Below, in pieces: positions 24,901 to 60,147 of a stretch of DNA of 64,000 nt (within the stretch, counting starts at the first letter, position 1; each line of letters begins with the position of its first letter). The notes beneath the pieces were generated by a model, which did no database searches, was not told the DNA's origin, and worked only from the letters and a program-made list of their open reading frames with translations. The DNA comes from Argopecten irradians (Eukaryota > Mollusca > Bivalvia > Pectinida > Pectinidae): contig NC_091138.1 of assembly GCF_041381155.1 (NCBI RefSeq), positions 34,217,604 through 34,281,603 on the forward strand, in the 5' to 3' direction. Position numbers and translations under genes: made by a program.

Positions 24901-27900
24901 AAGTGCTCCTATTGACATTGAATTTCAGCGTGCAATAGATAGTCATGATGGATGGGGTCAGCGTCCTGTTCGCCAAGATACCGCGTGGGACATGAGTCAA
25001 GCACCAAAGACACAAAGGAAACCTCCTCCTGCTACAACTGAAAAGAACCCCAACAGCAATATGTGGGACAACAACCGTGGAACTGCAATATGGGAAGCCA
25101 GCAAAGACAATGCACCTGCTTGGAATGGCCCTCCAGGTAGCTGTCCTCCTACTGGGGGACCTCCGGGTAGTGCTCCGCCCGGTGGTGCTCCGCCTGGTGG
25201 TGTTCCTCCTGGTGCTATGCCTCGTCCTAATCCTCAAACTGCGCAGTGGGATGCAAGTAGAACTGATCCTAAGTCTTGGACTGGCCCACCGAAACCGAGA
25301 GACGCTGGTAACTGGGGAGCAACTAAGCCAGAGAAACCTGTTACAGGACAGTGGGGAGGGCCTGGTGGTAATGAAGCTAGTCAGCAAGCATCTGGTCAGT
25401 GGGGAAACAAAGTGGAAGTTGGATCATGGGGAAACACCGGCGAGCCTCCTGGAACAATATCTACCTGGGGTGAGACAACGAAGGGAAGAAGGGAAGTGGA
25501 TGATGGCACTTCACTTTGGAACAGCACTGCTGGACATATGCAAAAGCCCCCCAGCAACTGGAATGCTCCTCCAAATCAACAAAATACTCCAAATACACCA
25601 AATTCACAAAATAATCCTAACATGATGCCCATGCCTGGCATGCAGGCTGGGATGCCAGGCGGAATGCCAGGTGGGATGCCTGGACCCATGCCTAGTGGAA
25701 TGCCTGGTGGTATGCCAGGTGGAATGCCTGGAGGAATGCCGGCAGGTATGCCGACCAGTATGCCTGGTGGAATGCAAGGTCGCCCAGATGAGTGGAACCG
25801 CAGTAATAAACCACCACCACCTCAACCTGGACAAGCTTCTGGATGGGGGGAACCACCACCACCAAGCATGAAAGGAGACGATGGCAGCCGCTGGGGAGGG
25901 AACCAACCGCAACAGGTGAGCAAAATTATAAATTTGATTGTCCAACTTTACATCAAAGGAAGGGAAAGCAGTGCTGTGGTATTGTATTAAAAAAAAACTG
26001 TCTCTTGTAAATCTGACTGTTTTAACTGATGAATGAGTGATGATACCTTTGAATATTTAGCTGATGATCTGTTTTCGAAAACAGTCAGCAGTTTGTACTT
26101 GTAACAGTATAATTGACATTTCTTTTATAATAACTTGAGCCATATATATACAGCAGATAGCAGGCATTTCAATTGGCTTGTCTTCTGCAGGCTCGAGCTG
26201 GTGGTTGGGGCGAAACAAGTCAGTGGAACCCCAAGCAATCAACCTCGTCCTCATCCTCCAGCTGGGGAGAAGAATGGAACCCCAATGAACGAAAGGTAAG
26301 AATTGGCAATCCCAAACCATCCTCCACCTCCCTCTCCAGCTGGGTGGGGCCGGACGGGGCTGACATGTATTGGAACAACCCACCTGACCCATCCGGCTCT
26401 AGTTCAAAATCCTTCAACTGGGGCGAGAAAGACATGATCTGGAACCAGTCTGATAATAGGAAGGTAAGTAATTAGTTTGTGGGCAGGGTTACAAACGAAG
26501 TTGAGGCTAGGCCAGCCTGAAGCTCACCTCACCCCATTCCCGAGCCCAGCACCTCTAACTTGCACAGCTTAATTAATGCCATACTTAATTTATATTAACA
26601 TCAGTTCAGTTTATTGTTTCATTAATGTTTTGTTTCACAGTTGATGCTTTTCCCATTCTTGGAAATGGGCATCATCTAGGAATGCTGTTTTTGGGTTGGA
26701 AAATGTTTTGTAATTTTCTGGAGTTTTGAGACAATTTTGTTTTTAAAAAAAGGAGTATAATGTAACCAGGTGTGAATGGTTTTGATTTGTTCTAACTGAG
26801 TGGCTAAGATATTCTGATAGATAAAATTGATAATGGGTCTCTTAAAAATTGATGTCAAAAACTTAGAAAAAGTAAGTGGCTTATATTGCCCAAGTCATAA
26901 GGTTCCTCTCCTCTGGAGCAATAACTTGGAAATCAGGTAAGAGAAACATACATATTGATATATTATTGCTATTTGATTTATTCACTTTCAATTTACCACC
27001 TGTCCACTGGATGCCATAGAAGATGAGCTGCTACAGTTTCCATTGAATGTTGCTGGTGAACTCTTCATATGGTTGCAGTGTTGTTTAACTGCAGTTGATA
27101 CTAATATTTGTTTCTACAGGATGATATGATGTGGAACGAGGATGGTTCTACCAATTATGACGATGCTGACATGGGCACATGGAACGATACTACTCAGGAA
27201 AACAACTCTTCCTGGAGTAGTGCTACAGGTTGGAAGTTCGGGAGGAGGAATCTTGTAAAGGTAATAAATTCAGTAAGGACACTTTTATTATACTCTTTCA
27301 CTCTCTTTCTCTTCTATCTTCAACAACATTATTCAATAATCATTACCACATTATATATGAATGTTGTAGGCTGCAAAATTTCAAGAAAATTTTTTTTTAT
27401 AATTATGTATATGCATTTAAATGTTTCATTGTTATTAAATAATACTTGCACTGTTACCAAAAATGGACTAATAATACAAAGAGATTGCATGAAAGTACTA
27501 CTTTTACTTTTAAATAATCATTGCAAATAATTGACCCCGGACTTGTTTAGGATTTCTTCCACCCTCTTAACCTGACATGTTAAAACAAATAAATGTATGC
27601 AACTCGTCAAGAACATGTATTGTTAACGTGGATGTCGATCTTTTCAGGGTGGTGCTACAAGCCGATTCCCAGGTAGTGGGAACCAGCCACAGATGCGCAG
27701 CAGACTGCTGCAACAGCTAATGGAGATGGGCTTTCAGGTTAGTCATTATATTGATATTTATATTGATTGTTGATATTTGAAAAAAGAGTGTCAGAATCGT
27801 TCATTATTTCATAAAATTTTAGTTACTGAAATGTTGGTTCTTAGCATGGCATAAATCCATAACTAATTTATTTCGACCAAATATAATATTGAAACAGGAT

Positions 27901-30900
27901 GGGACATAACATAATGGAAATACATGATGCAATTTAGGTGTCTTCATGTAGATATATGCAAAAGAGCATTCTTTACAGCTGCTGTCATAATCATTCCTTA
28001 TTATGACATGTGACCAGATATTTGCTAATGTTCCAATTATTTAAAATATTCCTCGATTGATCAATACTATCTACAATATTCTAAGGATTTTTATCACTAT
28101 TGTTAAGCCAGTCCACTTCTGGACTAGTAATAGCAAAACTGAATGCTGTGAAGTTGAGCATTGCACTCTTTTATTGATTGGTCAGTTTTCTTCTTTTGAA
28201 ATGTCCGAATTAGTCCAGGGGTGGATGATATGACAGTGATAGTAACCCCAGGAATACTGTGGATCAAATTCGAGAAACGACAAACATTGGAATGAAGCTC
28301 GGTTTTACACAAAACTGGAAGCTCGGTTTTACACAAAACTGGAAAAAAAATTGCTTGCAAAGCTACCATTTATCAACTTTTCCTTTTCAAAGAAAATATT
28401 TTTCGAGTCCATTTCACGAAGAACTGTTTATTTTTTTTGCAGAAGGATGAAGCCCAACATGCATTGATCAACAACAACATGAGTTTGAATCATGCACTTG
28501 GTAATATAAATATTCATTGTTTGCAAATTTATTAAAACAAAAAACTAGATAATAATTCATGAAGTTATATTCTAGTCTATACAGCTTGAACTATTTGAAT
28601 ATTGAAGTTTTACTATATTTATGAAAACATTGTATGTAATTTTCAAATTAGCTGTAGTCTTTTTGCATAATTAGTGGTAATTTAGTATGCATGTTCATGT
28701 TTCAATTTCAATTTCAACAAATTTTATTGCAAAAAAGCAAATGGTTTGGCACATTGCAAAGTCTATATTTAGTCATCATGTTAATGTTTAATTTATGTCT
28801 TATCATTTTAGTCTAAATGCATAAAAAAGGACGGAAGTTTTTCATGTTTTATTATTTTGCTTTATTGCAGCTGATCTCTACAAACAAAAAGGTGCTAGTT
28901 TTGTGAAAAGAGACGATATGGATGTTTTCCATCCAGATGGTGCAAAGCCCAAACTGCCTGGGATGGACATAGGTGCAACAGATCATAATGACATATCAGA
29001 TACTCAGTCGGAAAGCAATCCATTTGTGCCTAATATTAATTCCATGCAAAATACTCCTTTTCCAAATGCTCAATCTCAAATACCAAATCAGTTCATTGCA
29101 AATTCTATGAAGGGACCTAGTCTGACACAATCTAGTCAAAATTTGAATCCCAGTATTATAATGCCACAGCAACAAAGACACATTCAAGAAAAGTTCAAAG
29201 TCCAGCAGCAAACTATGAGTGCTCCCCCTCCAATGCCCCCTCCAACTCAGGGTATGGTAGCACGTGGGTCCATTCCCCCTCCTAATCAAGCTGCTGTCCA
29301 ACAACAAATGGCACAACAACAAATCCTCCAGCAGCTCCACTTAGCTGTAAAAGCTGGTCTCATCAGTCCCCAGTTGCTGAATCAACAGCTGCCACCTCCA
29401 TTGTTGATTATGCTACAGCAGCTGTTGCAGCATCAGCAGAGTCTACAGTCACATATCACCATGCAACAGCTTCTGCAGCAGAACAAGATGGGCCAGAATC
29501 CTATGGTACAACGACAGCAACTCGACTCAATCAACACAAAAATCAACGCCATAAAACAGCAAATACTCCATTTGCAACGCCAAATTTCAGACGCACAAAA
29601 AGTGCTGATGAAGCCTTCTCAACAACAACAGACTCCAACTGCTATGCCTCAAAATACACCTGCCGGTACTCTCTCTCAGCAGGAAGCTGATTCAATGAAT
29701 ACCCTGCCATCAGACCTGAATAACCTTGCCATTTCTACAAGTCAGCCACAACCGCAATCCAAGCTTAGTCAGTGGAGACGTTCAACATCTGAAAAAGATG
29801 GTACTCCTGTCAGCTCTTCGGAGAGTGTCCCTGCTACTGCAACTACTCAGCCCACCGAAAATGGTGCTCTCAACAAAGCTGTTGGGTCAAAACCCAATAT
29901 ACACCAGTCTCAATCCACCCCAAACCTCCGTTATGGAGACCTGGGTCTAGCCAATCTTGGAGGAGATCCCACATGGTCCAACATGCCAACTGTCTCATCC
30001 TCCTCTGAGAATTGGCCAAGTGCCATAGGAACCTCCAGTAGTTCTATCACCACTAGTAGCCAGATGCCTACTGGTAAGGATTCCGCTGCGTTAGAAGCTG
30101 GAAAGGATTTTTCAAAAGTATCAACCTCCGCTAGCTCAACATTGAACCTCAACGACTCCATTCCAGAGTTTGTACCAGGTAAGCCATGGCAGGGTATTTC
30201 TGCTAAAAGTGTTGAAGATGACCCACATATCACACCAGGAAGCTACTCACGCTCCTACAGTCTCAGTACTCCAAAGGAAGATGACCTATCCTCTCTAACG
30301 AAAACCAGTCCAAGTACATCTGAGTCTCCTTCGTGGTCAACCAAGAACCCACAACAAATTGGAAGATCCTGGAGTGGTGTAGACAATGTCATTCCAACCT
30401 CTTTCTCCAATGAAGTCTGGGGCGTTCCTCTTCCAAAGAATGCCTCTCGTCCCCCACCAGGACTGATGCAGCAGAACAAACAGGGAGGAAACTGGCCTGG
30501 AGGAGTCAACCGACAGCATTCCTGGGCTGGTACAGGTCAGTACGTTGTGTCGGTCATCCTATAGAAAGTTATTACTGCTCTTTGCACAAAATGATCAACA
30601 GGAAGTACAAAATAATTTCTTGCCAACATAAATAAATGTTTTGTAATGCATTCCAATTATGACAAATACCATACCAACATAATTGTTTTGATGTAGTGCA
30701 TTTCAAGTGACATTGTATCCATATCTTGAAAAGATTTTTAAGAATGTTTCTTTCTTTGATATCTTGCAGGAAGTGCTGGCAATTGGGCAGGAGCTCCTTC
30801 CAATTGTTTACTCTTACGGAACTTGACTCCACAGGTATGACTCTAAACATTTGATATTAAAGAGTTATATAAAGATTTGTGAAACATGATACAGAATTTG

Positions 30901-31599
30901 CATATATATAAGTAAAAAAGAACCATGTCCATGTATATATATGGATCACTGAAAATTGGTGCATTGTACATTAGTTTCACTTTGAATTTATATTGACGAC
31001 AAAATTATATGTTTAACAAAATGTTTTGTTCATTAATATGATGAATTGAAAAGTTTCTAAGTTGTGTGATTTCTCTTTTGTAGATTGATGGATCAACTCT
31101 ACGTACTCTATGCCTACAGCATGGACCTTTGATCTGCTTTTACTTGAGTCTGAATCAAGGACAAGCCCTTGTTCGCTACAACACAAAGGAGGAAGCAATC
31201 AAAGCTCAAAAGTCCCTTAATACTTGCGTTCTCTCAAACACAACTATTGTAGCCGAATTTGTATCCGAAGCCGAAGCAGTACGATTTGCTGAGAACGCCA
31301 TGTCAACTTCTCAGCCTAGTCAATGGTCTCAGCAACAACAGCAACAACAACAGCAATCACAGCAGTACAGGTCTACTGTTGGAGGAGGGGGAATGGGCAG
31401 GTCTGTTTCTACCAGTGGTGTGGGGGATCTGGGCTCCTGGAATCCTACACCCTCTGTAGTCCCAATGGCTCCGGGCATCCAGAACAGTAATAGTATGTGG
31501 GGGGCCGGATCAGGACAGGGTACTAGTAGTGGGGGGTTATGGGGAATGGAAGACCACAGTGCTAGTTTGCTTGGTAATATGTTAGGGGAGTCTATGTAA
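21953..31599 (+). CDS. TNRC6: TNRC6/GW182 family miRNA-silencing scaffold
   Basis: Inferred CDS joins 21953-21962, 22220-22345, 23538-25915, 26191-26463, 27120-27260, 27648-27737, 28443-28500, 28871-30535, 30770-30834 and 31084-31599. All phases agree, giving about 1,773 residues, similar to vertebrate TNRC6. In order: a W-rich Argonaute-binding N-terminus with [10 protein letters not shown] and the hook-like [15 protein letters not shown]; a V-D-D-G-T-S-L-W segment; a UBA split between [12 protein letters not shown] and the next exon; a Q-rich region; a PAM2 motif ([11 protein letters not shown]) that in this family binds poly(A)-binding protein; an RRM beginning N-L-T-P-Q-I-D-G-S-T-L-R; and a W-rich C-terminal silencing tail. 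In the family it bridges Argonaute to deadenylases in cytoplasmic P-bodies. Exon 26191-26463 contains a second in-frame donor at 26296. The orthologue is clear; N-terminal exon choice is less certain. Confidence 0.93.
22497..23054. mobile_element. MITE, TTAA-type (AGGGACAATTC family), intronic
   Basis: The left end TTAA-AGGGACAATTCACTC (TTAA at 22493) and right end TTTTAATTGTCCCA are inverted repeats, about 558 bp apart. The right-hand part (TCTAATTTCCATTAGAACTGG) recurs at 48.73 kb in a truncated copy whose right end is GAATTGTCCC-TTTAA. The TTAA at this copy's right edge is decayed. It fills most of the intron between TNRC6 coding exons 2 and 3. Confidence 0.65.
28080..28264. mobile_element. 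Diverged copy of MITE family C in a TNRC6 intron
   Basis: ACTATTGTTAAGCCAGTCCAC, TCTGGACTAGTAATAGCAAAACTG and, on the right, GTCCAGGGGTGGAT plus AGTAACCCCAGGAATACTG parallel the intact copy at 40262-40495. Both ends have decayed, and no target duplication could be assigned. Confidence 0.5.
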
Positions 31600-40700: not shown

Positions 40701-42110
40701 AGGGCATCGTTGCACCATTTTGGTAAGCTTATGAATTTTACTTTATTTAGATAATCAATTTGACAATTTATAGATTACATCAATTTGACAATTTATAGAT
40801 TAATTAATTAGTGGCCCCTTCACTAGATATGATGTGATCAATTTGTTTAATTATAAATATCACATTATTGCTAATTCTAAATTGTTATTTTTATTTGATG
40901 CATGATTGTTTTGCCTGTAGTTGCTTGAAAGTGGGATTACAACTGTCTTATGTAAATAAAAGAAAAAAGATGATGTATAGTTTTGCTTTAATACTGATGG
41001 TACTCAGAATTAAATGAAGGAAGCAGCTGGTGATTTAATTCTTGACTAAGAAGATCCACCATGTATAAAGTCTAGTTATTAGAATCTGTTTATCATGGTG
41101 TTAAAAAAATTCTCTTAAAAAGATACAGGAATAGGAGCTCTCTGTCTTGATGTCAGTTCTGAAGAGTTCTCCTAGAAAGCTTACAAATAAATAGGCTTCT
41201 AGATACCAAAATGGTGTCAGTAAAGTATGATTTACCATCTATTAGTTCCACTTTCCTCATATTGTGAGGTCCTATTTTGATTTTCACATGACAACACAAT
41301 CACCGGAAGGTGGGACTTAGTCCACATTCTTTTGGTATCTCGAGACCCACATATTTGTTAAGATTATTTGTTACAGGTTCAAGGACACTATGCAAGGAGT
41401 TATTGGTAACCGTGAGACAGAGCACGCTCTCACTCTTGGTCTAATGTACAGTACAGACCAGGCTCTCGATATTAAACTCATCGACAAGATTGTACCACAG
41501 GAAGAGATCCAAGCTGCCGCACAGGAGAAAATGAAGCAGTATCTCAAAATTCCAGGTCAGCAATTACAGTACCGCTATAGGAAGAACAATTGTTTTGTAC
41601 CATGTCTTCATATAAATGATCTTATTTTGTTTCATACTCAAAAGTTTACATTGTTATAGCAAAAGAAACATAGTTTAGATTAGAATATTGCCAAAGCAAA
41701 TCTCCATAGGCACATAATACCTGGCACATATTGTGATGGAGCAATCGAGGGTGGAAAGGGATGAAGTTCATCCATTTTTGTCTTATTCTTATTTTCATTC
41801 AAGTTTAAGGATGTAAGTATTTGCTTAATAGTTTCAAGTTATTTTCATGATTGTTTTGAAAGTATAGTATATAACTCTCAATCTATTTTTATATGACTGA
41901 TTTTATTATTTAACCTACTGTTTCTTTATTGCAGAGGTTGCCCGCCAGCTCAGTAAGGACTTGATGAGGAGGGAGACTCTAGAGAAACTGAGACTGCGAC
42001 GGGAAGATGATGTTGCTAATTTTAAGAACTTTGCTATCAGAGATTCAGTGCAGAAATCATTAGGAATGTACTTAGAAATGCTTAAAAAGAAAAGTCAGCA
42101 GAAAAAGTAG
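34768..42110 (+). CDS. ECI1: Enoyl-CoA delta-isomerase 1, mitochondrial
   Basis: Inferred CDS joins 34768-34789, 37787-37909, 38576-38700, 39281-39427, 39994-40089, 40703-40722, 41377-41555 and 41935-42110, all in phase, about 295 residues (human ECI1 about 302). The N-terminus is Arg-rich and acid-poor (M-A-T-S-W-T-R-G, then R-T-L-T-R-L-C), as expected for a mitochondrial presequence. Crotonase-fold signatures follow: C-A-G-L-D-I-L-E-M (oxyanion hole), I-A-A-I-N-G-H-S-P-A-G-G-C-L, C-D-Y-R-F-M, and Y-T-I-G-L-N-E-T-Q-L-G, whose Glu corresponds to the catalytic Glu of ECI1. In the family the enzyme shifts cis/trans-3-enoyl-CoA to trans-2-enoyl-CoA in beta-oxidation of unsaturated fats. The sixth exon is only 20 nt and encodes G-I-V-A-P-F plus two bases of a Trp codon. 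The first exon was chosen by phase and presequence character. Confidence 0.92.
35156..35305. repeat. Fold-back element with central perfect hairpin
   Basis: Outer inverted arms CAGGCGTCTGCTTCTG (35157) and CAGAAGCAGACGCCTG (35289) enclose a central perfect palindrome AGTACCCCTACTA / TAGTAGGGGTACT at 35226-35255. This is characteristic of a small fold-back/MITE. It lies in ECI1 intron 1. Confidence 0.75.
35380..36540. repeat. Probable dispersed repeat with internal duplication
   Basis: Two segments about 400 bp apart share TTGTATTAAACTTTT / TGGTATTAAACTTTTGTT, GGAAGAAAAA and GTCCGTGTGCT(C/T)..TTTTT (35547 and 35942). No ends or coding region were identified; the 144-codon minus-strand frame at 36124-36558 shows no recognisable domain. 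Repeat status is inference from internal similarity. Confidence 0.35.
36525..36594 (+). repeat. tRNA-like SINE head or tRNA pseudogene
   Basis: TGTAGCTCATTAAATAAAGCA resembles a tRNA D-arm/A-box, and CTGGGTTTGAACCCCAG forms a perfect 5-bp T-arm with B-box. The acceptor stem does not pair well (3' side TATGGCC) and the anticodon arm is poor, so it is not an intact tRNA gene. A SINE promoter followed by an unrelated body (from 36600) is the likeliest reading. Confidence 0.45.
36880..37221. mobile_element. MITE family B, copy 2, with a family A element nested inside
   Basis: The ends TAGTCCGCTAAGCCTGCC and (inverse) TAGTCTGCTAAACCTGCC match copy 1 at 17076. The flanks are a perfect 9-bp direct repeat TTTCAACAA (36871-36879, 37222-37230). 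The interior is occupied from about 36925 to 37140 by a diverged family A MITE (ATTGACCCAATTAATAACC on the left, GGCGCTTATTGGATTGAAT on the right). The nesting shows that B inserted first and A later. Confidence 0.8.
37529..37718. mobile_element. TA-flanked MITE family A, copy 2
   Basis: The left end CCGTATTCGACCCAATAAGC and right end GCTTATTGGGTTGAATACAT are inverted repeats flanked by TA (37527 and 37719). Extended homology runs inward through GCGCCC. It lies 68 bp upstream of ECI1 exon 2, in the intron. Confidence 0.75.
38825..39003. mobile_element. TA-flanked MITE (CTGTRARCGYAAA type), intronic
   Basis: The left end CTGTGAGCGTAAATG and right end TTTTTGCGTTTACAG are inverted repeats flanked by TA (38823 and 39004), about 179 bp long. 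The body contains repeated GCGTAA and ACGCAAAA motifs. A Tc1/mariner-type non-autonomous element is the likeliest source. Confidence 0.65.
39070..39240. repeat. Probable dispersed repeat fragment (GGTCTTTA units)
   Basis: Short motifs TGGTCTTTA/AGACCA recur (39095, 39130, 39180, 39208), and the right edge GGTGGTCGCTAAAGCAGG looks like an element end. Boundaries and target duplication were not resolved. It lies in the intron before ECI1 exon 4. Confidence 0.35.
40262..40495. mobile_element. MITE family C, intact copy, intron of ECI1
   Basis: The left end CATCCTCGATACTTCAGGGG and right end CCCCTGGAGTATCGAGGATG are inverted repeats; the flanks AGTTGCCCC and AGTTACCCC form a 9-bp direct repeat with one difference. 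Subterminal inverted segments ACCCCTGGACTAT and ATAGTCCAGGGG add a second palindromic layer. The 9-bp target suggests a Mutator-like source. Nothing is encoded. Confidence 0.8.
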
Positions 42111-44134: not shown

Positions 44135-44450
44135 CATCCTCAATATTCAGGTGTTCCGATCACTTACGATCTCTACACCCCTGGACTATCTCATAGTAAA
44201 ACTGGAGGCAACAGATTAGAACAGGTAATTTAGTCATTTGATGTACATCAAAAGGGTCGTATAACGGTACACAGTGGTTGACTGTGAGGCTTTAATGTTC
44301 GGCGTCGCTCTCTCCGTAGTCTTCAAAGGAAATCTTTGCTAGCCTGTGATTGGTCAAATGTTTTCAGCTGAGCTGCCTTCAATTTCACTATGAGATTGTC
44401 CAGGGGTGTAGAGATCGTAAGTGATCGGAACCCCTGGAATATCGAGGATG
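44135..44450. mobile_element. MITE family C, second well-preserved copy
   Basis: The left end CATCCTCAATATTCAGG and right end CCTGGAATATCGAGGATG are inverted repeats. The flanks GGGTCCACA and GGGTCCACG form a 9-bp direct repeat with one difference. Internal ACACCCCTGGACTATCTCATAG and its inverse at 44384-44406 form an inner palindrome. The interior ACTGGAGGCAACAGA matches copy 40262-40495. Confidence 0.8.
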
Positions 44451-45930
44451 GGGTCCACGGGGCTACAGGTCATCCTGAGAAGGGCTCTGTTCTGGGCTTA
44501 CCACCTGTGCTCGGGTGGCCAAATTATCTGGCCATATCTGGCCAAATTACTGACATTTATTTTGAAATTTAGTCCCATTTAAGAAAAAAAATATATCAAC
44601 CATGCAATATCTTCTGTGTTATAAGTATATGTTTAGTCTACTGAAGTGTCTGTGTCCGTTTTGCAAGGAAATTGCAATCTTACGGTACATCAACTTCGCT
44701 AGTCAAAGGTATTTCAGGGAGAGTATGGTACATGTAGTTTGAACTAACAAGGTAGTCCTGTTGGAAGGTCAAGCTCGGAACTTTTGAACTCCAGTTACAT
44801 TGAAAGAAGACCAAGGAGATGTCATAACTTCTTATCGGTCTAGTATTATGTGTTTAGCTCTTCTGACTCGAAGGGTCAGGATGACCTATTGTCATCAAGC
44901 TTTGAACGTGCTTTTTACGATTAACAAATTCCCATTCAACCACAAATGGCAAAGCATAAATTTTGATTCAATGATTGCAGCTGGCTACAGTGCTTTAGTT
45001 TTTATTTTATTTAAAAATAAAGACATTATTTGGATTTTGTAGGTTGATATACCATAATGGATACGACTGGATATGGCTGTCAAGAAATCGAGCAAACGTC
45101 AGATTAACAGACTTTGGTACTTGAGTGTTTTTAAACCAAAACAGCAGTTTAAAATGAAATCGTTTAAGTCACAAAGACGGTCTAGTGAAAGAAAGTGTGA
45201 ATTATGAATGCTGCATAGAGTTATAAATGTTTAATTCCATATAGTCTATAATATGCAGTGTATTGTCATAATGCTTTTCAAGCAACCTGATTTGGAAACA
45301 TTCAAACGTTTTCAGCATGCGTTAGAAGTGAGGAACCATTATATCTCTATTTAATATCACATGGCACCACACATATTATTATTAATGACGGAATCTACTT
45401 TAAAGGGGGGCTACTCCTATATATTTCACTCTTCTGTGAGTGAAACCACAAATAGTGGTACAACGTGGTCATTGTTATGAAAAGGTAATGTATTCGATCT
45501 GGCAATTCTTAGCCTAATATGCTTATTATGATGGCAAATAAGATGCCATATGTTATATTGATACATTATTTTAGTGTTTTAAACCCGTTAGCATGGATAT
45601 TACAAGTGCACATAACTGTAACTGTAACCTGCGACATGTGCGCGTTTCAAAAGATTTATTAGCTTAATGACTCAATATTTGTTGATCATAAGTGATAATC
45701 TTAAGACAGCCGTTTAGTTTTAAGATATTTTTCGATAGTAAAATAGTTAGTTAATATATAGGTAATAATCTCTATTGAATTCCAAAGGTGAAAAACACAC
45801 AATATCAAATTTACTAAACTGTGTATTTTAACCGTGAAGTTAACTATGCTTGTAAAAATGTGTACGCACCATGTGTTTGCATGGCTGTGTAACAGGTTGT
45901 CAGCATGTATGTTTTAAATATCACTTGCAG
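44451..45930. other. Intergenic sequence and likely NUDT1 5' region
   Basis: No recognised coding exon is seen. The NUDT1 coding exon starts just after an acceptor at 45930, so a non-coding NUDT1 first exon should lie upstream; I could not place it confidently. The 80-codon frame at 44800-45042 has no recognisable features. Confidence 0.4.
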
Positions 45931-45953
45931 ATCTCCGTGAACAAGTCTATAAA

Positions 45954-48224
45954 ATGACAACCAATAAATTACTGACCTTAGTGCTACTCAGGCAGGCACC
46001 AAGGATATTGCTGGGAATGAAGAAAAGGGGGTTTGGGGCCGGAAGGTGGAATGGATTTGGCGGGAAAGTGGAGCCTGGTGAAACTATAAAAGCTGCCGCA
46101 AGGAGGTATATAGTAAACTTGACTCTTGGAAGATTCGAAATGACAGCATGGCCTTTCTATGTCAGTTAAATAAATTTAATACAAGAAACACAATAACACA
46201 GTTAAACACACATATATTATATATACATAACTCAAAACAAGGAAAGGATGTTGACTGTTTATTGATGGATTGAAAGATTATCAGAAACCATAAAACAAAT
46301 CTTTGGCGTAACAGGGGCTACTCACTCACAACTAACAATAAACAAAAACTGCTTGACTCTGTAGGAAAAGAGAAGATACATAACATATATTATATATACA
46401 TATCTACATGTATATAGATGTGTATGTGATCCGTACTGATACGTACTGTTTTATTGCAAAAGTTTTTTGTTTGAGAACTTTGTGTATTTTTTTTGTTTAG
46501 GAAAAAGAATAATTTCTATTTTATAAACTGTAACTTTATTTTTGGAAGCTGTGCATAGCGTTAGTGGTTTTTAAGAACAAATTAAAAGCTATACGAAACT
46601 CCTACACTAATTATCATCGTCGATTACCTGCCGACAATAACCAGTCTAGCGTAGTGGAGTTAAGACATTTTGATATTCAATGATGCTAATTAGGTGTTTT
46701 GTAATTTTTTGATTTTGTAATATTTTGATACAGAGAACTACTGGAAGAATCGTGTGTAGTTTGTGACGATCTGAAGGAAGTAGGACTTCTGAAGTTTGAA
46801 TTTAAAGATGAACCACAGATACTAGAAGTACATGTATTCACTTCCGATAACTTTGAAGGAGAGCCAAAGGAAACGGAAGGTAAGCCTTATTGACATAAAT
46901 TAATGGCCAAAAAGTAAAGATCTGCTGTCATGAAATATGCCATTGACGGGTATTCATCTTGACCTAACGGTCTGATGTTTTCGCAAATACTGGATTTCTT
47001 GGTCACAGAACTGATCCCTTCCACCGGGTAGCAGGAATCGAAAATAAGCTATTATATCTATTGCAAAAATGTTTTGCTTCATTGTCATTTTCTTTCATAT
47101 ATACCATGGATTGCAGTGGTGATGAATGATAGAAAATAGTGTAACTGCAATGGGCCCTGAACATTTCTTGTTTCAGTCATTTTAAAAATAAAAGAAAAAC
47201 AATTACTGAAATTGCTACATTCGAATAAGGAAAATGGGCTATCAAAGTTTTCCTTTAAGCCAATGAAGGAATACTTGAAATATTGTTGTCATTTTGGTAG
47301 TATGATGATGTGCTTGTTATCTCACTTTAATTCTACAAGATTGATGGTTTGGTCATCCTTGGAAGGGAGGGTGTGATTTTTAATTATCTTAAGTATATAT
47401 GCTTCAGTGCAATATTAAAAATTGAAACACAACACGAATATAGCAGAGTTTCCGAGAATACACAAGGAAGTTCAACATGATCTATGCATTGAAGGATAAA
47501 TTTAAGGGAGTGGGACGATTGGTTTGCCGTTGTCTGTATAATGTGACCGGGTAGGTGTATTTGTTTGGTGTCTTCGGCGACATGGTTTCATGAGATGACA
47601 CTATCTAAAGGACAATAGTTCCACTATTACAAGGACACGCAACACGAATAAGGTATACCGCAGCCTCCCTAGACATACAGTCATCCAACACGAATAAGGT
47701 ATACCGCAGCCTCCCTAGACATACAGTCATCCAACACGAATAAGGTATACCGCAGCCTCCCTAGACATACAGTCATCCAACATATCCCAACACATTGCTC
47801 CATGGAATAAGGTATCCAACACCAATAAGGTATACCACAGCCTCCCTAGACATACAGTCATCCAACACGAATAAGGTATACCGCAGCCTCCCTAGACATA
47901 CAGTCATCCACATATCCCAACACATTGCTCACATGGAAGGCCGTCCTTAAATGAACATGTCTGTTAATAGGACGTCATAATGATAAACCAGACGGAACCA
48001 ATGCATGTTTATATATTGTATACTTTATCATAACAGAAATGCGCCCTAAATGGTTTGACGAGAAGTCCATCCCCTTTGAGCAGATGTGGCCGGACGATAT
48101 ATTTTGGTTTCCGTTGCTGTTAGGTGGCAAATCATTCTCTGGATATTTCTGGTTTGAAGGACTCAATGACATTGTTAAGTACAATTTAGAAGAAGTGGAA
48201 AGAATAGAAAGCAGCACAAGTTAA
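45954..48224 (+). CDS. NUDT1: Oxidised purine nucleoside triphosphatase (MTH1 type)
   Basis: CDS joins 45954-46105, 46734-46879 and 48037-48224, in phase, giving 161 residues (human MTH1 is 156). The acceptor CACTTGCAG at 45930 lies 23 nt before the ATG, so the first coding exon carries a short leader. Substrate-pocket motifs are present: [12 protein letters not shown] and, in the last exon, M-W-P-D-D, which hold the Asn, Trp and Asp residues that recognise 8-oxo-purines in human MTH1. The Nudix box reads G-x5-E-x7-R-E-L-L-E-E-S-C-V across the exon 1-2 junction, with the usual Gly replaced by Cys. In the family it hydrolyses 8-oxo-dGTP and 2-OH-dATP to monophosphates, cleaning the nucleotide pool. 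The long second intron carries a minisatellite. Confidence 0.93.
47636..47937 (+). repeat. Minisatellite, 46-bp unit, in NUDT1 intron 2
   Basis: The unit AACACGAATAAGGTATACC...CAGTCATCC starts at 47641, 47687 and 47733 with almost no divergence, then again at about 47818 and 47864. A second sequence, CATATCCCAACACATTGCTC, follows unit 3 and unit 5, so the array has a higher-order (3 + spacer, 2 + spacer) arrangement. Confidence 0.9.
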
Positions 48225-52800: not shown

Positions 52801-55800
52801 TCACGAATGGTGGTGTCCCGACATGCACCCTGGCTGGTAGTCAACTCGTCCACAGGCAAAACAAGTCTGAAGGAAAACAATATTGACTTGTACATCGTAA
52901 AGCTGAATACAATTCTGAACTTAGCATGAAATGTAAATATGAATACAATTCTAAACTTAGCATAAGATTATGATGTTAGGATTGCACATTTGTTCAAAAT
53001 TACGACTCCAAAAGAGATCTGATCCATGTTTTTATTAAAGAGACCTACAATCATGTATGAATTATTTTATACATTTGTAGACAAATTTACTTGAAAACAT
53101 ATTAATTTCTTCCTTTTGTTAAGCTTACTACAATTCTGACATAAGCGTAAAATGTAAATCTGAATACTGTACAATATTGACCTCAGCATAAATCGCCTTA
53201 TTATTGTACAGCTGTACAAATTATGACCACATAATAGGTCTAGCAACAATTTCTCGAAAAGAATGTACCTAAGTCAATTGCTTTACCAAAATTACATTCG
53301 AAGATAACTTCAGTTTTGAATTTAATAGTGGATTTGTTTAACTTGCAAGGACAATTTATTGTTTTTGAAAGCTAATCTGTCACCATATATCTTAAAGTGA
53401 CTATCGTGAATACAACTATTGCATTCTTTTCTTGTTAGCTTACTAGTGTACACTCTAAATGTATACCGTTGATTATGTTTTATGAATGAAGTTTATATAT
53501 ATAGACAAATCTTCCATTGAAACTGATTACCAGGTTATATATATAATCCACTTACCCCCTGTTATAATCCGGAGTGATCAGGTCACCAAGCGTATGAAAG
53601 AAAGAGAACTTTTATTGAGGACAAAATTACTTAGTAAGTAAATCAAACATCTATTTACAAGTTACTGTGGACAAAGTCACATAAAAACACATGATTGTTT
53701 TTTACTGCAACATTGTACTGAATGATTATCTTCTCATTATGTACAATGCAAATATATTCAGCAAAATTTACAGCAAAATAGGACCAACATTTGGGTCGCA
53801 AATTCACTCAGCAATTTTATTTTGACAGGATAACTAACTTTGAAAAAAATAGAATGTGTTCAAAGTGCATTTTATGTTGTTGAAAAAGAACAATCTTATC
53901 GATATCTATTGTTTGTGATTACTTTGAAGAGAGGAATCATTACAAGCAATCAATGCATGATACAATTATTTCGCTATTCGTCAGCATAAGAGTTCTAACT
54001 TTCATGGGTGTAATATGTTGTTAAAGAAATATTTAAAAGAAAGAAATTTGTTAAGGCAAAGGCTTGTTAAATTAGTTTATTCGGCTGACAATTTGTTTAG
54101 ACACTTACCCCCTTTGGTATCAGCACAGCAAACGGAATGAAAAAGATAAAAGAAGCCATTTAAATAGGTAACATTTAAATGTCATTAAGTTCAATGTTAT
54201 GATAACCTTCAGACGGTTCTCGTAAATTAACATACGTCGTTATTGATGAATTGACAAAAAGTTAAATACAAATTTTGTATGCATAAAGAAAATAACACAT
54301 TAGTAGTTTCACTTAGCTTGAAAACTCTAAGTTGAAACGTTCATTTGGATATACAAGAAGTGAGCAACCTTCATCCAAATTCAAATATTCAGTTTATATG
54401 AATACACAGTCGCCTTCTATTCTGTTAGCCGTGGTATTTTGCTTAGATTGTTAAGATATTCTAAGGAAGTCTGTTGTCATATTTGACATAATGGAGTAAC
54501 AGAATATACTCACAAACACCTAGCCATGATTGTCGATGATGCAGGTAACAACAGTCAGATTTAAAAGCAGGTGGAGGGAGAAAACAGAAAAAATATTATA
54601 CAAACATAATTGATAATGTGATAATTATATAATTATGTACGTATTTAAAACGCCGAATGAATTTCGTATCAATTATGTTCCAAGCCATTTGATTTGATTG
54701 ACAATGATTGACAGCTAGACAAAATATTAATGACATCCTTTGATACATTTTGTTTTCATTTGATCCACATTAAATGTGCTTGCATAATATATATATATAC
54801 ACATAATTTTCTGCTCAAATTTTGAACAAATGCTCGATCAACATAAAATCGAGTTATTTTTTATGTGTTTATAAATTGCAAATACTGTATACACAATAAA
54901 CTATACTTACATCCATCTGCAAATAAAATGTAAGAAGAATTAGTTCATATTATAAAATATATATGTAATACATGTAGGATGTGATTGAAATTATACGAAG
55001 TTTTCGAGTTTTTAGCACTTGTTTGTAGTACAAATGGTGTATTTTACTTTGAAATGCAAATTATACGTAAAGACTGTATGATTATGATGTGTAAGCCAGA
55101 AAGCAGATGCATGCTCGTAACGTAAATTAACCTACACAATTAATTTGCTTTAAAATCGAATTCAGAGATTGAAACATCTGACAAGTTCATTGTGTTTTAT
55201 GCATACTTACAATCTATTGATCGGCGGAATTGTAGAATGAAATGAAAAAAGAAAATACAAAATAATTAGAGAATTATTAAGTGATCTATGAAAATATCAT
55301 TTATAAAACACACAAGCAAAAGGTATTTCTTAATCAGATTTTTTTGCTTTATTATGGTAAACGATCGGCATCCATAATACCATATTTCAATATTCTTTAC
55401 GAAAATAAACTTTTGAGACTCGTGTTAAAGCTAAAACAAAAATATATTTCTAAACCAGATCAGACATATTATCAACATATCAATATGTTACTTGAATTTT
55501 TCCCAAAAACAATTCATAGTTACAATGTTTATTTTCATGACAGTTATCTAGATCTACCTAGTTATACCACTTCCTTGCGGAGAGGTAAATATCCAGGAGT
55601 TTTGGAAGGGAATTAAAATGGCACTGTTTACCCATAACCGAGTTCACAACAGCCATGTTAATCGGGCTCGCGACAAGGAAGAAATGGCTTACATTAAAGC
55701 AAAGAACATGAAGTGACAGTTTGATAATTTGGTAATAATACGCTGTAAACACCCTATCCTACTCGGCACTGCGGCCCTATCAGATAGCGCACTTGCCCAG

Positions 55801-58800
55801 ATAATTCTTTATACAAATATTTAAACCTGGCAAATATTTACTTATGGGATGTGATATAATCAATACACATTCTATCGTTCGGACTGTCGAGTCACTTCAA
55901 TCACCGGGACAAGGGTTCTATTGTGGGTCGTAGACTGATCTGAAATGACTGCCCATACAGAAGTTCAATGTAATACCATTAGAAACGAGTGCTAATACAG
56001 TTAAAAAATATTTAGTATTGTGAGTTTATTGTTGAACTGGGTACGTATTGCAGGCTGTATGAGTCAATCAGAGTTTATGATTTCGTTCTATGATCCAACT
56101 TCTCACATTACATGGCGACAAAGCGATTACTGAGTTGCTAACTGTTTAAAAGCGAGAGTACATTACTATCGTATTGTTAAATATATTTTTTATTTTAGCT
56201 ATTTGTAATACTTATTTGTTTCTGTTTCTTATACACGTACACTAATAGCACACTGGTGTATATGCTGTTTAGGTTTTCGTCGTGATTTGATCGAGTTGAA
56301 TTCGTTGCACTTAAAATCACAAATAATAATACTTTTGTGCTTGTTATATATTATACTTTCGCTTAAATTCACTAATTCGTCGCTATGGTATCTACTTTAA
56401 ATATTAGTCATTTTCGCCCACTTTTACAATTATCATTACCTGTCCGTGTACTCCCCTTTTGTCAGTGAAATGTCATTATCTGTGTCCTTAGTAACTTACA
56501 TTACAGGTATTTACCAACACAGACGCCTGTCTGATAGAAAGATATATAGTTTATCCAGTGTTATCGCCATTTATAAAGTCTGCTGCTATGTCAACAATGT
56601 CTATTATTTATATGCTACATTTAATGACGTAAGTTATTTATTGTTTTATTTGCTTCTTATATTGCGAGAAACCCTTATCTCACCATTATTTATGGTGACG
56701 ACTTTACGTCATATCAACAGCCATTTTGCAGGTGTATATAAGATTTGAAGATTTATTGAAGAGTTTCCGGAATAAAGACACAAAGTTATAGACACAATAT
56801 AGACAGAAACCGACCAAGTAAGGCCTTGAAATAGCGACATAGAGATTCCATTGTTGTGGTAGATTGGTTCACCTATTTAAGCTATGGAGTTTAAAGACCT
56901 CCGAACAGAAACAACAAGTACTACAACTTATAAGAAATCATTTTAGATGACATGGATGTAAGCGAATGAAAGGATGTAAACGAAACAAAAATTCCCAAAC
57001 CCTATCACCTAGAGGTTACCTTCACTATTTGTCACTGTGGTTCTATAAGAACTTATTATTAAAGATCGTAACTGGATTTGATCGAGACCAAAACACAACA
57101 TTTCCACTTCGAGAATAAAAATGTCCCCCTAAAGGGACGTTTCCCTACGTTTTTAAACTCGTTTTTTTCAGTAAAGATAGAAAGGAGGGAAAAGAATAAT
57201 AAGGGATAAATAGATCAACAACAATAGGAATTTCCATCCGAAATTAACATTCCTAATGATAACCATGGGTCACTATATCAATTGATCAACTGTGTCTGGC
57301 AAGTATTCAGCTGTACATTTATTGCTGGCGGGATAGACCTATAGTGATCCCGTATAGAAAGTATGGGTAGGGAGCAATGGAAAAGAAATATGAAAAAATA
57401 AATTAAAGATAAATATATGCATACGAGACCAAGTATATATTCAACACAATTCAGTTATCACAAAATAGAGCTGTAATAATATTGAAACGCGTACCAATGT
57501 ACCACAAAGGTGAATACCCCTCGATTTCCTATTCGGGCCTGACCCTGGTGAGAACGTTTTCAATACCCTCTCGTGTGTTTATAAGTAGATTGAAACCAAT
57601 TTAGCCGGACAATCATGAATGAATAAATCTACATATAGTATGAACACTTACCGGCTGTTTGGTTGAAATTATGTTGTCAAGAAGCACAGGAATATGAAAA
57701 AGAAGATTAAATATTAAACTTGGGACATTTGGATTTATAACGATAGTAACTTTGGAGTCAAGGGGAAACTTCAAACATCATTTCAGCTTTAGATTTCATA
57801 TTACAGTTGTTTGAAAAAATGCATTTTTTTCAAACATCATTTCAGCTTTAAATTTAGTGCAGAATTTTTTACACATTAAATAGTAGATCTACGGTAAGCT
57901 GTCCTTCTAGAAATGATGAGTGTATTCATAATGAATTAATATGTATTTGGTCTATAATACATATGTCGATAATGGGAGGCTACTAAATTTGAATCTCTCA
58001 TAGATCACACGAAACGTTTATCAACACACCTACCTGGATGATTTAAACATGACCTTTTTAACTATATACAACGATATCAATATCAAAATACTAGTTTAAT
58101 TAGATCGGTATACTCTGAACAAGACAAACACTCGGAATAAGGGTGATAGGCAAAGTTGACGAAATATCATGTAACACAAAACAAGAAAACAACTTTTAAA
58201 AAGGGATGAAAAGTAACAACACTCACCCCTGCATGCCATCGACATGCCTTCTCGTTGTTGGACATTGCGTTGTAAAGCTTTTTACACCTAATACACGAGA
58301 ATACAGCATGACCCGTCCGTGAGGGATGAGGGGGAGGACTAGTACCTTCGTCACCATTTGGCTGATTGTTCACAACTTCTGTCAAAAACACATCACTTGT
58401 TTTGTTATTTGTTAGACTTTCTAGGGAACCGTGCATTTTATTTTTGCCGTTTTTAAGATATCGCGTATGTTCCAAAACTACTCTCCTGTCTTCTACTTCT
58501 CGTCGAATGTTCTGTTTCGTGAGATGTGCCCGATGTCGTTTCACGTCGTTGGCATGGTTACGTTGTTCCCGAATTATTTGCTGTTTGAGTTTCTTCTCAA
58601 GACACCTCACTCTACTCTGATGAGTGAAAAGATTACAGTATATGGTGACAAAACCACAAGCTTCACATTCAACATCGCGGAAATCACACTCCTCAACGTG
58701 CTTCTTGATATCACACCTTCGGATTTTTTTCTTGCATCCTTTGGAAATATTCGGACATGTCATTGCCGTATTTGGACATTCATCACCCATATGGTCTGGT

Positions 58801-59087
58801 AAGCTGGACAGAGGAAACGTTTTCCCACACTTATTGTGACAACGAATTTGTAAAGTTAAAAGCTCTAGCCGGAAATCCATGGAAGGCGGGGACATTTTTT
58901 TTATCAACTGAGCACTGCAGTCTGGGCACCGCTTTGCCATGTCGCCCCCAAGTCGCTTTTTGACACAAGAACTACAGAAGATATGGCCACAATGATTTGC
59001 CACTGGGTCCAAGAAGACTTTGTGGCACAGTTTGCACACATATTTGTCGTCCACAGGATCGACAAACTGACGCGGATCTAGTCCCAT
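52801..59087 (-). CDS. RING/TRAF-type zinc-finger protein, probable E3 ubiquitin ligase, with microexon linker
   Basis: The main exon 59087-58227 gives 287 residues. A C3HC4 RING at about 18-57 (C-K-L-C, H-C-G-H-I-F-C-S-S-C, C-P-D-C) is followed by TRAF-type Cys/His fingers at about 83-160 (C-H-N-K-C-G, H-M-G-D-E-C, C-E-A-C-G-F), a basic coiled-coil-like stretch at about 160-215, and half of a zinc module, C-I-R-C...N-N-E-K-A-C-R-W-H-A-G. A TAG lies 12 nt upstream in frame, and an acceptor CATTCTTCAG ends at 59112, which fixes the start. The exon closes with GCAGGG|GTGAGT. The terminal exon 52866-52801 supplies T-C-F-A-C-G-R then G-C-M-S-G-H-H and a stop. Six 3/6-nt exons between them restore a continuous module (about 316 residues in all). 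RING domains of this type bind E2 enzymes; substrate unknown. Retention of intron 1 would instead give a 306-residue product. No orthologue name is assigned. Confidence 0.7.
53556..53558 (-). other. Putative 3-nt microexon 6 (GGG, Gly)
   Basis: Minus strand reads ATTATAACAG|GGG|GTAAGTGGA, with a pyrimidine tract (TTCTCTTTCTTTC) about 40 nt upstream and no intervening AG. Phase 0. Confidence 0.45.
54109..54111 (-). other. Putative 3-nt microexon 5 (GGG, Gly)
   Basis: Minus strand reads GATACCAAAG|GGG|GTAAGTGTC. The donor is strong; the AAAG acceptor is weak, with its pyrimidine tract (TTCTTTTATCTTTTTC) about 25-45 nt upstream. Phase 0. This is the least certain acceptor in the chain. Confidence 0.4.
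54514..54519 (-). other. Putative 6-nt microexon 4 (GTGTTT, Val-Phe)
   Basis: Minus strand reads CATGGCTAG|GTGTTT|GTGAGTATA. An AG-free stretch of about 60 nt reaches back to a pyrimidine tract (CTGTTTTCTCCCTCC), consistent with a distant branch point. Phase 0. Confidence 0.5.
54911..54916 (-). other. Putative 6-nt microexon 3 (ATGGAT, Met-Asp)
   Basis: Minus strand reads CATTTTATTTGCAG|ATGGAT|GTAAGTATAG. Acceptor and donor are both near-perfect consensus, which makes this the best-supported member of the chain. Phase 0. Confidence 0.65.
55211..55213 (-). other. Putative 3-nt microexon 2 (ATT, Ile)
   Basis: Minus strand reads GATCAATAG|ATT|GTAAGTATG, with a long pyrimidine tract (TTTTCTTTTTTCATTTC) about 20-45 nt upstream and no intervening AG. 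Phase 0. Confidence 0.5.
56500..56526 (-). other. Possible additional 27-nt exon
   Basis: Minus strand has CTTTCTATCAGACAG, then 27 open nt (A-S-V-L-V-N-T-C-N), then the donor GTAAGTTA. The length is a multiple of 3 and the phase fits, so it could be an alternative exon in the microexon chain. Its content does not obviously extend the zinc module. Confidence 0.3.
57652..57654 (-). other. Putative 3-nt microexon 1 (CCG, Pro)
   Basis: Minus strand reads CCAAACAG|CCG|GTAAGTG. No other AG lies between the upstream pyrimidine tract (CTTCTTTTTCATATTCC) and this acceptor, apart from the terminal one. Phase 0. Confidence 0.5.
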
Positions 59088-60147
59088 CCTTTTCTTCTAT
59101 TTGTGCTCACCCTGAAGAATGAAACAACATTTATAAGTAATTCAGAAACACCAATAAAATACGATTTTGCTATCTTATACATTTTTTTGGTACATCAGTA
59201 TCTCCTTAACTGTCTAACTGTCATACAGCATTTGTCATTGTTAAAATATTTAAAGAAATTAACTATGACATGAAATACTATAGACATACAAATAATTGAA
59301 AATTTCATATACTAGTAAGCACCCACTTTCTTGTTTAATGAATAATTACAATTACAAACACAAAAAGTCTTGTATCTATTTTGGATCTGGAACATAAAGC
59401 ACTTTTTATTTACATATCTTTGCCCGACCAATCAAAATATACGTTACTTCCTCGAATCTCACATATGATTGGTTAAGATAAAACTTAGAATAGTATCGTG
59501 ATTATAATTTCATGTAGACCATAACGATAGATTTGATAGGACATATTTTTTGCGACGTCTTTCATCTAAATTGAATATTGGCTATGTAATAAAGAGTAAA
59601 ATGAACGTTAGGAACGAGAATGAACACAATTATTTTGTTTGTAGTCTAAAATGAAGCAAATGACAAATTAAGTACGGAGCTATTCCACATTTTGTTTTAC
59701 TGGAAAAGTGCTCGAGTATTTTTGGTTATGACATGAAATAATCGTAATAACTGTACAATAAAGCCACTCGTAATTCAAATTACATGTCATGTCAGAACTA
59801 TTGGCATTAGTGTTGGGCATTATTTAAACGTCGTTCTCCTACCAATTAACGAGTGGTTATTACTCATCAGTTAAATAGATACGCCTAACGAAGTAAGAGT
59901 AAATATATACACCCGAAATACTAATGGAGATTAATCCCGAAAATACACGCGAACAAAAGACCGATTGAATAGTGATCTTTGAAGAGCTATATATACTTAT
60001 TCAGTATGTTATACGAACAGAATAGTCTGGACATGATTGAATACAAAGAAAAAATTTATGCTGATTTCTATTGTGAAAGTATAAAAGCAATCAGAATAGA
60101 AAGCGTTGTAAAATTTGCTCTATTAAACATAATGCGACCTCTATGCT

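Follow-up and report, generated by a model that had tools for sequence, protein, structure and literature searches.

The locus described here raises the question of whether a conserved Cys/His finger can be completed by a succession of exons that are each only 3 or 6 nucleotides (nt) long. It is on the minus strand of a 64,000-nt stretch of the Argopecten irradians genome (contig NC_091138.1, positions 34,217,604–34,281,603), which is termed the window and whose own numbering is used throughout. The gene encodes RING and TRAF-type zinc-finger motifs, and its C-terminal Cys/His finger is divided between two large exons (Table 1). The original prediction placed six tiny exons between the two halves. 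All six sites are present on the minus strand with the positions and letters predicted, each with AG on the 5' side, 3 or 6 nt, and GTAAGT or GTGAGT on the 3' side. The end of the upstream exon at 58227 and the start of the last exon at 52866 are also as predicted. All six microexons can be joined, and the resulting open frame is identical to a public protein. It is very likely that this is a RING/TRAF-type gene in which a succession of six microexons (3, 3, 6, 6, 3 and 3 nt), spread over 5.36 kb, completes the finger.

The coding part of the upstream exon ends in C-R-W-H-A-G and is followed by a GTGAGT donor. Its acceptor, read from the sequence, is TTCTTCAG at 59111. A donor-like motif, CAG/GGTGAGC, is located right at the start of this start-codon exon (59111, minus strand); a donor-like motif at the exon start is a feature of recursive-splicing exons. 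The last coding exon reads T-C-F-A-C-G-R-V-D-Y-Q-P-G-C-M-S-G-H-H-H-S-stop (52866–52801), and a 3' untranslated region should follow the stop within it. The seven introns are, in order, 572, 2438, 294, 391, 402, 550 and 689 nt in length and are phase 0 throughout. The lengths of the microexons are multiples of three, and none of the 64 combinations of included and skipped microexons has a premature stop, in agreement with the original prediction. The six exons of 3–6 nt fall within the definition of a microexon as an internal exon of 30 nt or less, with the matching protein sequence being of probable RNA origin.

This matching protein, P0002, comes from a homologue search in which the two large exons, joined without the linker (308 residues), served as the query. 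Three protein searches, this one included, gave a set of 50 homologues (P0002–P0051) from a database clustered at 90% identity, so isoforms are hidden. P0002 is 316 residues long, eight more than the query, and its sole contig is 1,330 nt. The eight-exon translation of the window is identical to P0002 at 316/316 residues, and the linker P-I-M-D-V-F-G-G, the product foreseen for the six joined sites, is positioned between CRWHAG and TCFACG. This contig could not hold the 5,360 nt between the large exons, and P0002 therefore probably derives from spliced RNA or a copy thereof. P0002 could also represent a processed retrocopy or another locus, with the sites in the window being decoys or a dead copy. 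P0002 is known as a protein only, with its source DNA unseen, which leaves room for this explanation, but it is highly improbable. The 308 residues outside the linker are all identical to the window, the window's own sites spell the linker in a unique way (see below), and a retrocopy would itself need a message spliced through the microexons. In addition, a 401-base query from positions 58400–58000 (174 bases of exon and 227 of intron) has a single match in the species' own 846-Mb genome among the best candidates, which were the only ones scored; a nearly identical duplicate of the end of exon 1 is therefore not evident.

The original prediction held that such sites are hard to obtain by chance, and this is borne out by the counts. 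Besides the upstream exon's own donor, GTRAGT is found seven times in the region, and in six of the seven cases an AG precedes the motif at a distance of exactly 3 or 6 nt. Dinucleotide shuffling of the region (1,000 replicates) yields on average 0.26 AG-N3/N6-GTRAGT sites, and never more than 4. The whole minus strand of the window has nine such sites, six of them inside the region, and the plus strand has five. The seventh GTRAGT is a GTAAGT at 56499 (minus strand), inside the second intron (57651–55214); it lacks an AG at 3 or 6 nt on its 5' side and is unused in the product identical to P0002.

An exhaustive search was made for ways to encode PIMDVFGG in the region with ordered sets of up to six pieces, each with AG before and GT after, in any phase and with a minimum intron length of 40 nt. 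Both here and in the decoy tests, the outermost boundary on each side was kept fixed. There is exactly one solution, which consists of the six predicted sites, and no GT-AG parse with one to five pieces was found in the 5,360 nt. Allowing GC donors adds one variant that affects the first piece only (CCT at 56054, with a GCAATA donor). Contiguous coding for four or more residues of the linker is found nowhere in the region. With any GT accepted as donor, a parse was obtained for 10 of 4,000 random 8-mers from stored proteins, 4 of 4,000 draws of linker permutations and none of six orthologue linkers in this region. The same search gave no parse in 80 other overlapping 5,360-nt stretches of the window. 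When donors are limited to GTRAGT, no decoy peptide of these three kinds has a parse, nor does any of 3,000 dinucleotide-shuffled regions. Support for splicing at the six sites goes far beyond what chance would give, and it is very probable that the chain is real. In one report, a spliced aligner put forward spurious micro-exon series in places that a single ordinary coding region would explain (PMC10166558). A corresponding explanation here, i.e., coincidental AG-N3/N6-GTRAGT sites and a true linker from another, larger exon, is extremely improbable in view of the missing one- to five-piece solutions, the single alternative under GC donors and the decoy tests.

The motif C-x-[WY]-H-x-G, which marks the end of exon 1, is reached by 39 of the 50 homologues, and 11 fall short of it; the two CxYHxG cases (P0042 and P0044) were assigned by visual inspection of their tails. 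A complete C-terminus is present in 11 of the 39 (P0002, P0005, P0007, P0008, P0011, P0012, P0013, P0015, P0017, P0019 and P0021), from contigs of 1,123–2,151 nt. Their linker is always eight residues long and has the form P-[IM]-[IVM]-x-[VL]-F-G-G. In an alignment of ten complete homologues (A2) the linker residues Pro288, Phe293, Gly294 and Gly295 are invariant, as are the surrounding Cys and His residues. Because of these invariant residues and the constant length in the 11 complete sequences, it is more likely that the linker belongs to the finger as a fixed element than that it serves as an adjustable spacer. Since the eight-residue segment is constant in length and part of the finger, the ladder of microexons would be mostly constitutive in its inclusion, and it appears to have been missed by annotation.

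Independent skipping that tunes the length of the linker, as also suggested in the original prediction, is not supported by these sequences, in that no skipping variant is found among the 11 (with clustering at 90% hiding isoforms). A real chain of skippable cassettes comparable to the micro-exon genes of flatworms is an unlikely explanation. The phase 0 microexons, their divisibility by three and the absence of premature stops from all 64 patterns are compatible with it, and two homologues from other molluscs, P0025 (Nucella) and P0041 (Sinanodonta), lack the whole linker and have HxG joined directly to TC. Against it are the constant linker length and the four invariant residues. Furthermore, P0025 and P0041 are gene models from large contigs (3.4 and 165 Mb), in which very small exons can easily be overlooked; their direct joins may be annotation misses or real skipping. 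A direct join of 58227 to 52866, the equivalent arrangement, is not seen for Argopecten irradians.

The other homologues that reach the motif have different ends. Tails that begin with V are found in 25 of the 39 (V-S in 19 of the 25), the outcome expected from read-through of a GT donor, and one homologue, P0049, has a tail of another kind. In the 25 tailed models the break comes after no linker codon in 18, including the nemertean Lineus model (P0050), after one codon in four (P0009 Saccostrea, P0024 Mercenaria, P0029 Solemya and P0042 Haliotis rufescens), after two in two (P0034 Mya and P0044 Haliotis rubra) and after seven in one (P0051 Crassostrea gigas). Every break position coincides with a junction of the chain in the window. 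Models that end after one, two or seven codons may represent partly spliced messages or species with a longer upstream exon. If the tails are read-through, introns would interrupt the linker also in oysters, Mya, Solemya, Mercenaria and abalones, and at least part of the arrangement would then be older than the split between bivalves and gastropods. The closest named relative of the window protein is Mizuhopecten yessoensis, with 82% identity.

The size of the contig bears on how these ends are read. Of 18 models on contigs of at least 45 kb none has the full linker; 16 have intron-like tails and two are the direct joins. Among 19 homologues that reach CxWHxG on contigs shorter than 3 kb, 11 have the linker and eight run into an intron-like V-S/R/C tail; because of these eight, the contrast between short and long contigs alone is no proof of transcripts. 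The eight, with their tails after HxG, are P0004, P0006, P0020, P0022, P0023, P0030, P0045 and P0046. They would either be of genomic origin or stem from messages with a retained first intron, which would encode a shortened protein with an incomplete finger.

The Pfam model zf-TRAF and two RING models match the protein above their curated cut-offs, and the best-scoring solved chains are TRAF5 and TRAF6. The TRAF-C domain is the defining domain of the TRAF family. The RING and TRAF-type zinc fingers of that family are both present, but no Pfam match to a C-terminal TRAF-C/MATH domain is found in P0002 or P0021, where the C-terminus is the Cys/His-rich finger. The gene encodes a molluscan RING/TRAF-type zinc-finger protein that, based on its domains, is probably an E3 ubiquitin ligase. 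A helix is present at residues 160–213 in the AlphaFold2 model. No Pfam family has its best stretch in the C-terminal finger of P0002 or P0021 at E values up to 10, in a search where the HMMER filters remove the majority of weak hits. When the finger region of P0021 is used as a database query, the matches are P0021 itself and P0025, with no others. Zinc binding by the finger is suggested by the Cys and His that it contains.

The acceptors of the microexons differ from most AG dinucleotides around them. The distance from the microexon AG to the previous AG is 64, 72, 101, 195, 95 and 50 nt (microexons 1–6). The other 228 AGs of the region have a median distance of 15 nt, and 18 of them are at 50 nt or more; the probability that six randomly drawn AGs equal the observed minimum is 5e-6. 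In five of the six microexons the best pyrimidine stretch ends 27–59 nt upstream, and in these five the pyrimidine fraction is 0.47–0.59 at positions -20 to -3 and 0.62–0.83 at -45 to -21. Traits of eMIC/SRRM-dependent neural microexons are present, i.e., a long AG exclusion zone (50–195 nt) and, in five of six, a low pyrimidine fraction at -20 to -3 as the measure of a weak 3' splice-site region. Long AG exclusion zones have been reported for eMIC-dependent microexons (PMC8797185). UGC close to the 3' splice site is another trait of that class; as raw counts, TGC is within 60 nt of the site in four of the six microexons and within 24 nt in three.

Flanks of about 150 nt were compared between microexons as 15 upstream and 15 downstream pairs, each against 100 Markov-resampled pairs. 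In four of the 30 pairs the null equals or exceeds the observed value in just 0, 1, 1 and 2 of 100, which is more than expected by chance. Support on both sides is found for none of the pairs, and the flanks appear to be rich in AT; for these reasons an origin by tandem duplication of one microexon unit is neither claimed nor excluded.

These properties suggest that each microexon is its own compact splicing unit, with a GTRAGT donor, a previous AG that is far away and, mostly, a distant pyrimidine tract. The two ends of a 3-nt exon could hardly be bound simultaneously, and the introns may thus be removed singly; a steric constraint on the joint assembly of U1 and U2 at microexons has been discussed (PMC10250204). 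Removal one at a time is suggested because six such exons are consecutive. Possibly, after each ligation a full donor would be present 3–6 nt past the new junction and available for the following step, in the manner of recursive splicing. An upstream-first order is hinted at by the models in which upstream introns are gone and a downstream one is kept, and the SRRM4 precedent is the opposite. A stronger form of the proposal is an ancient ladder kept across molluscs, with seven phase 0 introns within eight codons, self-sufficient splicing islands and strictly stepwise splicing. This form is tentative and somewhat doubtful, and it is graded lower since the authors of the MPC1 study (PMC9929638) prefer exon definition to recursive splicing. 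The sites could also be mainly ratchet points that remove a long intron stepwise, with the coding bases as a by-product, which is the same mechanism with a different purpose. The nearly juxtaposed acceptor and donor at each site do resemble recursive-splicing sites, but the region is just 5.36 kb and the bases spell part of a conserved finger and are needed as coding sequence, which makes this purpose improbable.

A number of observations weigh against a finger completed by constitutive microexons spliced in steps. P0002 is a protein record only, of probable RNA origin. Inclusion of the microexons is read from the protein match. P0025 and P0041 join HxG directly to TC. Conservation of the microexons in relatives is drawn from the break points of gene models, and their positional agreement is a weak test, as seven of the nine possible break positions are junctions here. 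The structure of the finger is of low confidence in the AlphaFold2 model (13-sequence alignment), with a predicted local distance difference test score (pLDDT) below 50 at residues 277–316. The gene's two ordinary acceptors are 20 and 58 nt from the previous AG, and because of the latter a long AG distance is not exclusive to microexons. Microexon 3 departs from the layout of the other five, in that its pyrimidine fraction beside the AG is, together with those of the two ordinary acceptors, 0.71–0.76. With respect to an upstream-first ratchet, for 58% of SRRM4-dependent microexons the downstream intron is the first to be removed (PMC10250204), and with respect to stepwise splicing, exon definition was concluded for the 4-nt exon of MPC1 and contrasted with recursive splicing (PMC9929638).

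Table 1. Exons of the RING/TRAF-type gene and the region between its two large exons, in window positions
Feature	Positions	Strand	Length and content	Basis
Upstream exon (start codon)	58227–59111	-	Coding sequence 59087–58227, 287 codons, 861 nt; RING, TRAF-type zinc fingers, long predicted helix, first half of C-terminal Cys/His finger (C-x2-C ... C-x-W-H-x-G)	Translation
Region between the two large exons	52867–58226	-	5,360 nt; six microexons (24 nt) and seven introns	
Microexon 1	57652–57654	-	3 nt; CCG (Pro)	AG/GTAAGT flanks; Pro in P0002; only GT-AG linker parse
Microexon 2	55211–55213	-	3 nt; ATT (Ile)	Flanks, unique parse, P0002
Microexon 3	54911–54916	-	6 nt; ATGGAT (Met-Asp)	Flanks, unique parse, P0002
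Microexon 4	54514–54519	-	6 nt; GTGTTT (Val-Phe)	Flanks, unique parse, P0002
Microexon 5	54109–54111	-	3 nt; GGG (Gly)	Flanks, unique parse, P0002
Microexon 6	53556–53558	-	3 nt; GGG (Gly)	Flanks, unique parse, P0002
Last coding exon	52801–52866	-	TCFACGRVDYQPGCMSGHHHS-stop; second half of C-terminal finger	Homologous C-termini

Other features are present elsewhere in the window. A TNRC6/GW182-like gene is at 28825–31599 on the plus strand, perhaps from 22168, and has matches to the GW182 M domain, the PABC-binding region and an RRM. Upstream of it is a Gly/Trp-rich open frame (23423–25990) with no Pfam match. Two other open frames on the plus strand match an enoyl-CoA hydratase/isomerase domain below the Pfam cut-off (41321–41659) and a NUDIX domain above it (45918–46169). 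An inverted repeat is found at 44148–44210 and 44374–44436; its 63-nt arms are 92% complementary and 163 nt apart.

Six exons of 3–6 nt in succession strain the usual idea of exon recognition. For each finger the splicing machinery must succeed six times running, and the gene is therefore well suited to discriminating between stepwise and exon-defined splicing. The 18 models on large contigs also illustrate that genome annotation can leave a conserved domain broken. In the open-licence literature, represented mostly by titles and the openings of abstracts, no report of this gene or of any run of six exons of 3–6 nt was found. Single 3-nt exons have long been known, e.g., in mouse Ncam and Drosophila TnT (PMC8042270).

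Human RPS24 (PMC12686416) is similar in having consecutive microexons (3, 18 and 22 bp), of which the 3-bp exon adds a single residue. It differs in that there are three microexons, one of them of 3 bp, and they are alternatively spliced; in the cell lines tested, the 18-bp exon is missing from the isoforms that carry the 3-bp exon, whereas all six microexons are joined in P0002. Exon 2 of human MPC1 (PMC9929638) is a constitutive ultra-small exon of 4 nt with a pyrimidine-rich region far upstream, as in five of the six microexons here, but it is a single microexon and its length is not a multiple of three. Its major branch points are at -68 and -63/-64, a distance that the authors propose relieves crowding, and 6 nt of the downstream donor consensus suffice.

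Runs of at least four symmetrical microexons are characteristic of the micro-exon genes of schistosomes and tapeworms (PMC7653826, PMC4350168). The rule given in PMC7653826 is at least seven exons, at least half of them micro-exons (< 70 nt and divisible by 3), with a run of at least four; the present gene has eight coding exons, six microexons and one run of six. The flatworm genes are associated with protein variation by skipping and with secretions or glands, in contrast to a conserved RING protein with a fixed linker. In plants there are 1-nt exons in APC11 and VPS55 and adjacent exons of 5 and 12 nt in a peptidase M1 gene (PMC8831610, PMC4674806, PMC11096116). Plant microexons are constitutive or mostly included, conserved and missed by annotation, as is probable here, and GTRAGT donors were noted for VPS55. 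Removal of one intron after another has been proposed for the 1-nt exon of Arabidopsis APC11 (PMC4674806). The plant cases cited differ in kingdom and in having two adjacent microexons at most. The bicycle and megacycle genes of aphids (PMC9168663) also have many microexons per gene (> 100 in megacycle), but they are highly divergent putative effector genes, and the likeness is in the number of microexons.

Recursive splicing at ratchet points (PMC8605326, PMC6110457) likewise involves an acceptor and donor that are nearly juxtaposed and a donor beside the new junction. In classical recursive sites the AG directly abuts the GT, whereas here 3 or 6 nt separate them and are retained in the message. 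In relation to these systems, the gene is an extreme variant of known microexon splicing.

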